Part shown: positions 27,259 through 27,380 of the stretch, one piece after another | Layout of the letters: each line of letters opens with the position of its first letter | Position numbering within the stretch: the stretch's first letter is position 1 | Origin: Candidatus Dormiibacterota bacterium | GTDB lineage: Bacteria > Chloroflexota > Dormibacteria > Aeolococcales > Aeolococcaceae | Direction: 5' to 3' | Length of the DNA: 64,000 bases | NCBI GenBank assembly: GCA_019245575.1 | Contig: JAFARE010000001.1 | Coordinates: forward strand, 124,001 to 188,000 | Notes under the pieces: generated by a model | The model's input: only the letters and a program-made list of their open reading frames with translations | Told to the model about the DNA's origin: nothing | Databases searched by the model: none | Translations under genes and position numbers: made by a program

Positions 27259-27267
27259 ATCGTACCC

Positions 27268-27283
27268 ATCGACGCTCTTCGAT
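27268..27283. promoter_or_regulatory. candidate ArsR operator, copy 1
   Basis: ATCGA-CGCTCT-TCGAT. Confidence 0.7.
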
Positions 27284-27308
27284 AGAACTGTGCTACGCTG
27301 CCGGATCA

Positions 27309-27324
27309 ATCGACAAGCTTCGAT
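27309..27324. promoter_or_regulatory. candidate ArsR operator, copy 2
   Basis: ATCGA-CAAGCT-TCGAT, starts exactly 41 bp from copy 1, abutting the SD of the micro-ORF. Confidence 0.7.
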
Positions 27325-27338
27325 GGGAGGCTTCCGCC

Positions 27339-27380
27339 ATGGACTGCGACTGCCCCACCTGCGACTGCCCCTGCTGCTGA
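27339..27380 (+). CDS. 13-aa Cys-rich microprotein MDCDCPTCDCPCC (candidate micro-metallothionein)
   Basis: ATG GAC TGC GAC TGC CCC ACC TGC GAC TGC CCC TGC TGC TGA; SD GGGAGG at 27325-27330; divergent from arsR; absent from the supplied ORF track because of size. Confidence 0.6.
   Translation: MDCDCPTCDCPCC

Follow-up and report, generated by a model that had tools for sequence, protein, structure and literature searches.

Metallothioneins of the SmtA type are proteins of about 50–60 residues that combine Cys and His with a folded zinc-finger part, and ArsR-family repressors come off the DNA upon binding their ion. The thiols of CxC and CC motifs bind As(III) and soft metals, while the genes familiar from ars operons encode reductases, pumps, methylases and C–As lyases. 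ArsR/SmtB proteins control metallothioneins, as in the SmtB–SmtA, AzuR–NmtA and BmtA systems of Synechococcus, Anabaena and Pseudomonas, where a Cys-rich metal-binding protein is repressed by a member of this family and inverted-repeat operators lie around the transcription start (PMC8790569). The polycysteine upstream open reading frames (uORFs) of mycobacteria are described as leaderless, cis-acting elements that start cysteine-biosynthesis operons (Canestrari et al. 2020, cited in PMC9094748). CruR is a DUF2946 protein of 145 residues with a CXXC motif and a C-terminal RAPP arrest motif, and CutF has a Sec signal and a stem-loop that masks the Shine–Dalgarno (SD) sequence (PMC9426467, PMC9973294). 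Here we describe a 13-residue polycysteine peptide encoded divergently from arsR in a 64-kb stretch of DNA from a soil bacterium, Candidatus Dormiibacterota (the window, part of contig C36 of a 2.6-Mb metagenome-assembled genome, MAG), together with the related short Cys-rich open reading frames (microORFs) of its class. The comparison makes it likely that the microORF is a real gene of the ArsR regulon, whose product, a phytochelatin-like thiolate microprotein made on ribosomes, would buffer As(III) or soft metals.

The microORF lies on the plus strand at 27339–27380 and reads from ATG to TGA as MDCDCPTCDCPCC, with six Cys and neither Lys nor Arg; Cys is written TGC throughout, Asp GAC, Pro CCC and Thr ACC. 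An SD sequence, GGGAGG (27325–27330, plus strand), stands 8 nt ahead of the ATG. A motif-free scan of both strands for SD-led ORFs of 10–40 residues and a Cys share of 25% or more found this one alone in the window. On the minus strand, the divergent arsR gene (26890–27258) encodes an ArsR/SmtB-family repressor (NF033788, 78 bits against a cut-off of 55; ArsR winged-helix domain PF01022, 53.4 bits against 22) that carries KGCC and CVCDF cysteines. The divergent promoter region contains two predicted ArsR-type operators, ATCGA-CGCTCT-TCGAT at 27268–27283 and ATCGA-CAAGCT-TCGAT at 27309–27324, 41 bp apart from start to start. Both are perfect dyads (10/10), better than those of most relatives. 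The exact pattern ATCGA-N6-TCGAT occurs in the window only at these two sites, against an expected 0.06, and no shuffled sequence contained two. Downstream, the neighbour is a convergent xth gene for exodeoxyribonuclease III (27393–28199, minus strand; TIGR00633, 251 bits against a cut-off of 99), which lies outside the system and whose stop is about 13 bp past that of the microORF; a co-directional gene directly after the microORF is absent. All of this, the SD-led peptide with six Cys among 13 residues, the twin dyads of identical architecture with the second touching the SD, and the convergent gene, had been read in the original prediction and was found in place.

The original prediction did not mention that the first operator covers the −35 position from which the microORF would be transcribed. 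In the relatives the promoter has the form TTGACA-18-TAnnnT, and their first dyad, ATTGACA-N4-TCGAT, thus contains the −35 element, with the second dyad between the −10 and the SD. By eye, from this arrangement, a putative −10 element, TACGCT, can be placed at 27294–27299 on the plus strand of the window, with a −35-like TCGACG at 27269–27274 and a spacer of 19; the second operator would then lie between the −10 and the SD, directly ahead of which it ends. Neither an intrinsic terminator nor a sigma-70 consensus promoter was found at the window locus by a consensus scan, and an Rfam search matched no known RNA family.

The original prediction had likened the repressor to the As(III)-sensing ArsR1 of Corynebacterium glutamicum. 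The best PDB relative of the window ArsR is C. glutamicum ArsR (6j0e), with which it shares the ArsR fold and an N-terminal CC pair that aligns. However, the position of the third Cys differs: since CVCDF stands in place of the PVSV stretch of 6j0e, the third ligand may not be that of C. glutamicum, and CVCDF may supply the third sulphur.

We searched 60 relatives with the window ArsR protein, inspected what lies divergent from arsR at 45 loci, and then scanned these without any motif. The comparison group was the class Dormibacteria (Candidatus Dormibacteraeota, Candidatus Amunia). The original prediction had proposed a search for short Cys-rich ORFs in related genomes, and this search yielded 17 further loci in Dormibacteria; with the window, and with the second cadI loci of two genomes added, 18 intact microORFs of 13–35 residues were obtained, behind a twin-operator promoter or within an ars operon. 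Nine stand directly ahead of cadI (L122 MSCDCPCGSCPCPCGC, L123 MPCDCPCGTCPCPCGC, L124, L126, L129, L011, L012, L015 and L212) and four directly ahead of arsM (L125 MPCDCPCGSCPCPCPCAAGR, L127, L128 and L130), while one is the last gene, behind arsM (L132 VIPCDCPCGSCPCPCGC, genome G002). The remaining four are orphans with no ars gene after them: the window copy, L136 MDECECPCNGPCC of family f3, L157 MACDCGCDCDGTCDCDCDC and L158 MGCDCGCDCDCTCDGDCDCDC. The L136 peptide has the same length as that of the window but is independently placed in another family. Most copies contain 30–47% Cys in CxC and CC motifs and are acidic or neutral, and His is rare. The downstream cadI genes belong to the ArsI/CadI family (NF041414, 186.7 bits against a cut-off of 116), and the downstream arsM genes match NF008823 (290.2 bits against 263, for the L032 protein taken as probe). 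Operons with several ars genes continue into an aquaglyceroporin gene (MIP), arsC or both.

The motif-free Cys-ORF scan, run over 263 kb of arsR loci on both strands, gave 14 matches, all 14 at ars loci, and an SD-like sequence precedes every scanned microORF. Two dyads of at least 8/10, 33–44 bp apart, were present at 31 of the 45 arsR loci. A class-wide search for the operator pair matched in 43 of 110 genomes, against 0 for the reversed-pattern control, and in the window's own genome it found this locus only. The dyad statistics, the motif-free scan and the operator-pair search with its control rule out a chance ORF. Pattern searches, which cover only part of the sequence space open to such short peptides, gave 63 matches in genome contigs; about 50 of these were unrelated, mostly antisense to other genes or within longer frames. 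The matches L036, L039, L042 and L043 turned out to be unrelated, as did L155 from Actinomycetota, which is antisense to a large membrane-type ORF.

In the ArsR tree, the microORF-bearing loci fall mostly into one clade, with losses, and into two separate lineages (L136 and L132). At the five loci L006, L008, L011, L012 and L015 of genus g6, arsR is separated from the promoter of the microORF by a gene for an ArsN1a-like acetyltransferase (143 bits, against a cut-off of 170). This gene lies on the arsR strand, and the twin operators there diverge from arsN1–arsR. At L157, in-frame decayed Cys repeats (CDRDCRGRDLDGRCDRDCDC) come just after the microORF stop, which is at about 1652, which suggests that this peptide was formerly longer or duplicated. 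In another copy, coupled to cadI at L211 (G023:C86; VDCEPSEGTCPYPRKGL), the start, SD, operators and coupled stop are kept, with Cys down to two.

The likeness to the SmtA-type metallothioneins consists in a predicted Cys-rich product behind putative inverted-repeat operators of an ArsR/SmtB-type regulator. The microORFs differ from them in size, in the rarity of His, in the arsenic-operon setting and in the CC/CVC type of ArsR: members have 13–36 residues, and the window peptide, with 13 residues and no His, offers no folded Cys/His cluster of 50–60 residues. A Pfam search with eight members of at least 20 residues gave no match even at an E-value of 10, the window peptide being too short for such a search, and a protein database search for longer forms yielded no candidates. 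In composition, phytochelatins, (gamma-Glu-Cys)n-Gly, and synthetic (Glu-Cys)n are likewise short acidic Cys-repeat peptides, and the genus g6 forms (MACDCGCDCDGTCDCDCDC) look like ribosomal (Asp-Cys)n analogues of phytochelatins. Unlike the gene-encoded microORF peptides, phytochelatins result from enzymatic synthesis with glutathione as the substrate and contain gamma bonds, and the likeness implies no sequence relation. In keeping with these comparisons, the microORF product would be a metalloregulated metal-binding peptide, metallothionein-like in its action and with the look of a ribosomal phytochelatin. We found no report of such peptides among the open-access papers searched.

The coding sequences are also constrained. 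In a set of five peptides that share one core, synonymous changes account for 40 of the 44 pairwise codon differences, and seven of nine variable columns are third positions; choosing peptides by their common core inflates the synonymous share, yet four of the five loci were found via ArsR and not via the motif. Genomes G023 and G026 both carry an orphan microORF at the arsR locus that has survived the loss of cadI beside it, with cadI located elsewhere in each. Between them, the orphan ORF is identical at 56 of 60 positions (93%), with one in-frame 6-nt indel, while the flanks agree at only 126 of 167 positions upstream, operators included (75%), and 110 of 160 downstream (69%). Because the ORF is conserved where the flanks have diverged, selection acts on the peptide even where no ars gene follows it. 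These orphans are also richer in Cys (eight and nine) than the cadI-coupled copies of the same genomes (two in L211, five in L212).

The most serious alternative is that the microORF is a cis-acting leader, in which the ars gene behind it is controlled by Cys-codon attenuation or by the nascent peptide as it binds the metalloid, and of which the window copy is a stranded relic. The original prediction had considered a leader weakened by the lack of a closely following co-directional gene; as most relatives carry a close cadI (arsI) or arsM, the idea had to be tested on them. At 13 of 18 loci the microORF indeed lies directly 5' of cadI or arsM, and the next start falls 1–2 nt past its stop or overlaps it (TGACATG, TGAGATG, ATGGCTGA), so that the translation of the two is probably coupled. 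Moreover, poly-Cys and metal-sensing leaders are already known (PMC9094748; PMC9426467; PMC9973294): like the mycobacterial uORFs, as these are cited, the microORFs are short, Cys-rich and often directly 5' of an operon gene, and like CruR and CutF they encode a metal-thiolate motif ahead of metal-response genes. However, the four orphans have nothing to regulate in cis, and the same holds against an attenuator at L132, where the microORF is the final cistron of arsR–arsM and is followed by a strong hairpin with a T-rich tail (z −4.1); the MerR-linked copies described below likewise stand last. The orphan ORFs are kept while their flanks diverge, no consistent leader or junction structure is seen (z −2.9 to +2.2, mean near 0.5), and no space is left for a terminator between the microORF and the next start. 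In contrast to the mycobacterial uORFs, described as leaderless, the microORFs have SDs and are preceded by ArsR-type operators, and some of them are solitary or close their operon; none of the defining features of CruR or CutF, such as a RAPP-like arrest motif or a signal peptide, is found in these 13–35 residues. This layout excludes a purely cis-acting role for the orphans and for the copy at the 3' end of its operon, and as a general explanation such a role is rather unlikely, although a second, cis role is possible where the microORF is coupled to the next gene.

A somewhat less likely reading is that the family functions elsewhere while the window copy has recently lost its partner gene and is decaying without function. 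No ars gene lies downstream of it, its promoter has a 19-nt spacer and a −35 sequence, TCGACG, weaker than the TTGACA of the relatives, and the comparison set for constraint includes no relative of the same genus. Nevertheless, its start, SD, stop and six Cys are intact and both operators are perfect, the L136 orphan of family f3 has likewise kept the design at the same length, and the genus g6 orphans are under constraint, all of which makes decay quite improbable. Least credible, with only a very slim chance, is another thiol function, such as a small redox or thiol buffer, a metallochaperone to ArsM or ArsI, or the precursor of a modified peptide. It would suit the operons coupled to arsM or arsI, and CxC motifs can presumably be redox-active; however, the loci read show no recurrent modification, export or protease genes alongside, and the MerR-linked copies described below have no partner of the ArsM/ArsI type. 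A dedicated partner is unlikely because the enzymes to which the microORF is coupled are of two unrelated kinds, and the orphans are coupled to no enzyme at all.

Several observations weigh against a gene for a trans-acting thiolate buffer, which we nevertheless prefer. A single MAG is the only known source of the exact window peptide. The original prediction had named lack of conservation among relatives with the same promoter as refuting; the same kind of ORF occurs at 17 further loci, but twin operators without a microORF are found at L131, L133 and L020–L024, in families f3 and f4 and in genus g12, where the promoter runs directly into arsM or cadI. Because of these relatives the microORF is dispensable, and the dyads are part of the ArsR switch rather than specific to the microORF. 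The 13 copies coupled to a downstream ars gene leave room for a cis role there. Finally, we infer As(III) as the ligand from the operon neighbours and the type of ArsR, and the MerR-linked copies suggest other ligands, namely soft metals.

Outside Dormibacteria, a search of the class Ktedonobacteria gave five matches, all of which follow MerR-type regulators, and one actinomycete (L100/L114) has the same arrangement. These peptides, from five Ktedonobacteria-class genomes and the actinomycete (MRYQAACEPCDCPDGECSCGCDCGCC, MKLFAAACECGCPCDCPDGDCTCDCGCC, MMKPSLVALSLSDACDACDCPPGECPCGCCGGTGCC, MRAFEVCDCPCGHCPCDCPGCGC, MRAASDGCDCPCGQCPCDCPGCCGG and MTDVVPCDCPCGCCPCEGC), share the core CDCPxGxCxC and stand as the last gene or genes behind a MerR-family metalloregulator, for which the best models are CueR or ZntR, all below cut-off. 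Strong, terminator-like hairpins follow the copies at L117, L119 and L120 (z −4.0 to −4.7), and weaker ones those at L118 and L121. Loci with this core behind MerR-family regulators in the class comprise L117–L121, L056, L066 and L105; in the actinomycete, two Cys-rich microORFs lie in tandem (MTDVVPCDCPCGCCPCEGC and MTETPCPCCGCPCGDCGGPGSK). Whether homologous or convergent, the same peptide design accompanies metalloregulators of two unrelated families.

The original reading needs correction in that the window locus makes up only part of the arsenic system of its genome. On contig C22 (L147), arsM–arsR2 diverges from the aquaglyceroporin gene (MIP) and arsC, and no microORF is present at this second ars locus. 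The G002 version of the same locus (L132) carries its microORF behind arsM, whereas that of the window's genome lacks it. No cadI was found elsewhere in the window's genome, with a query that matches in four related genomes. Because arsM, arsR2, MIP and arsC sit on L147, the window locus would supplement that system with a buffer under a switch of its own. Near the arsR locus, a NicT nickel transporter gene (28190–29347, minus strand; NF052500, 530 bits) is divergent from a Fur-family regulator gene (29097–29864, plus strand), which scores highest with the Fur model at 65 bits, short of the cut-off; the pair forms a metal-homeostasis neighbourhood.

The original prediction, that ArsR derepression yields a tiny thiolate peptide, receives strong comparative support, since peptide type, operators and SD are all conserved and three further orphans exist; the translation of the microORF, the binding of ArsR, the identity of the ion and the physiological role are what we infer from comparing sequences. 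As long as neither As(III) nor a similar thiophilic ion is present, ArsR would occupy both operators, covering the −35 and the stretch from the −10 to the SD, and block both directions. Upon binding of the metalloid to its cysteines, ArsR would leave the DNA and the peptide would be made. Through its CxC and CC motifs, the peptide would chelate the ion and hold it until methylation by ArsM, handling by ArsI/CadI or exit through the aquaglyceroporin.

In all probability, then, the microORF encodes a natural peptide that binds arsenic or metals and is shorter than any metallothionein known. We give an even chance to the broader proposal that it represents an undescribed class of gene-encoded phytochelatin-like peptides of 13–36 residues with (D/E/P)-C repeats, the smallest metallothioneins known, present in Dormibacteria and independently in Ktedonobacteria under ArsR or MerR; these would act in trans, sequestering the ions within the cell as one arm of resistance to arsenic and soft metals, and would in the window lineage be the sole output of the ArsR switch. 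If the buffer reading is true, 13 residues are enough for a metallothionein-like function, gene annotation misses such ORFs, which fall below the usual length limits, and a short gene-encoded As- or metal-binding tag would be at hand for biosensing or remediation. According to the abstract of a 2025 paper (PMC12093948), ars operons have so far yielded no gene for the intracellular sequestration of arsenic; a conserved Cys-rich microprotein under ArsR control would fill this gap. The recurrence of such peptides beside MerR regulators suggests that they belong to metal responses in general and have been overlooked there.
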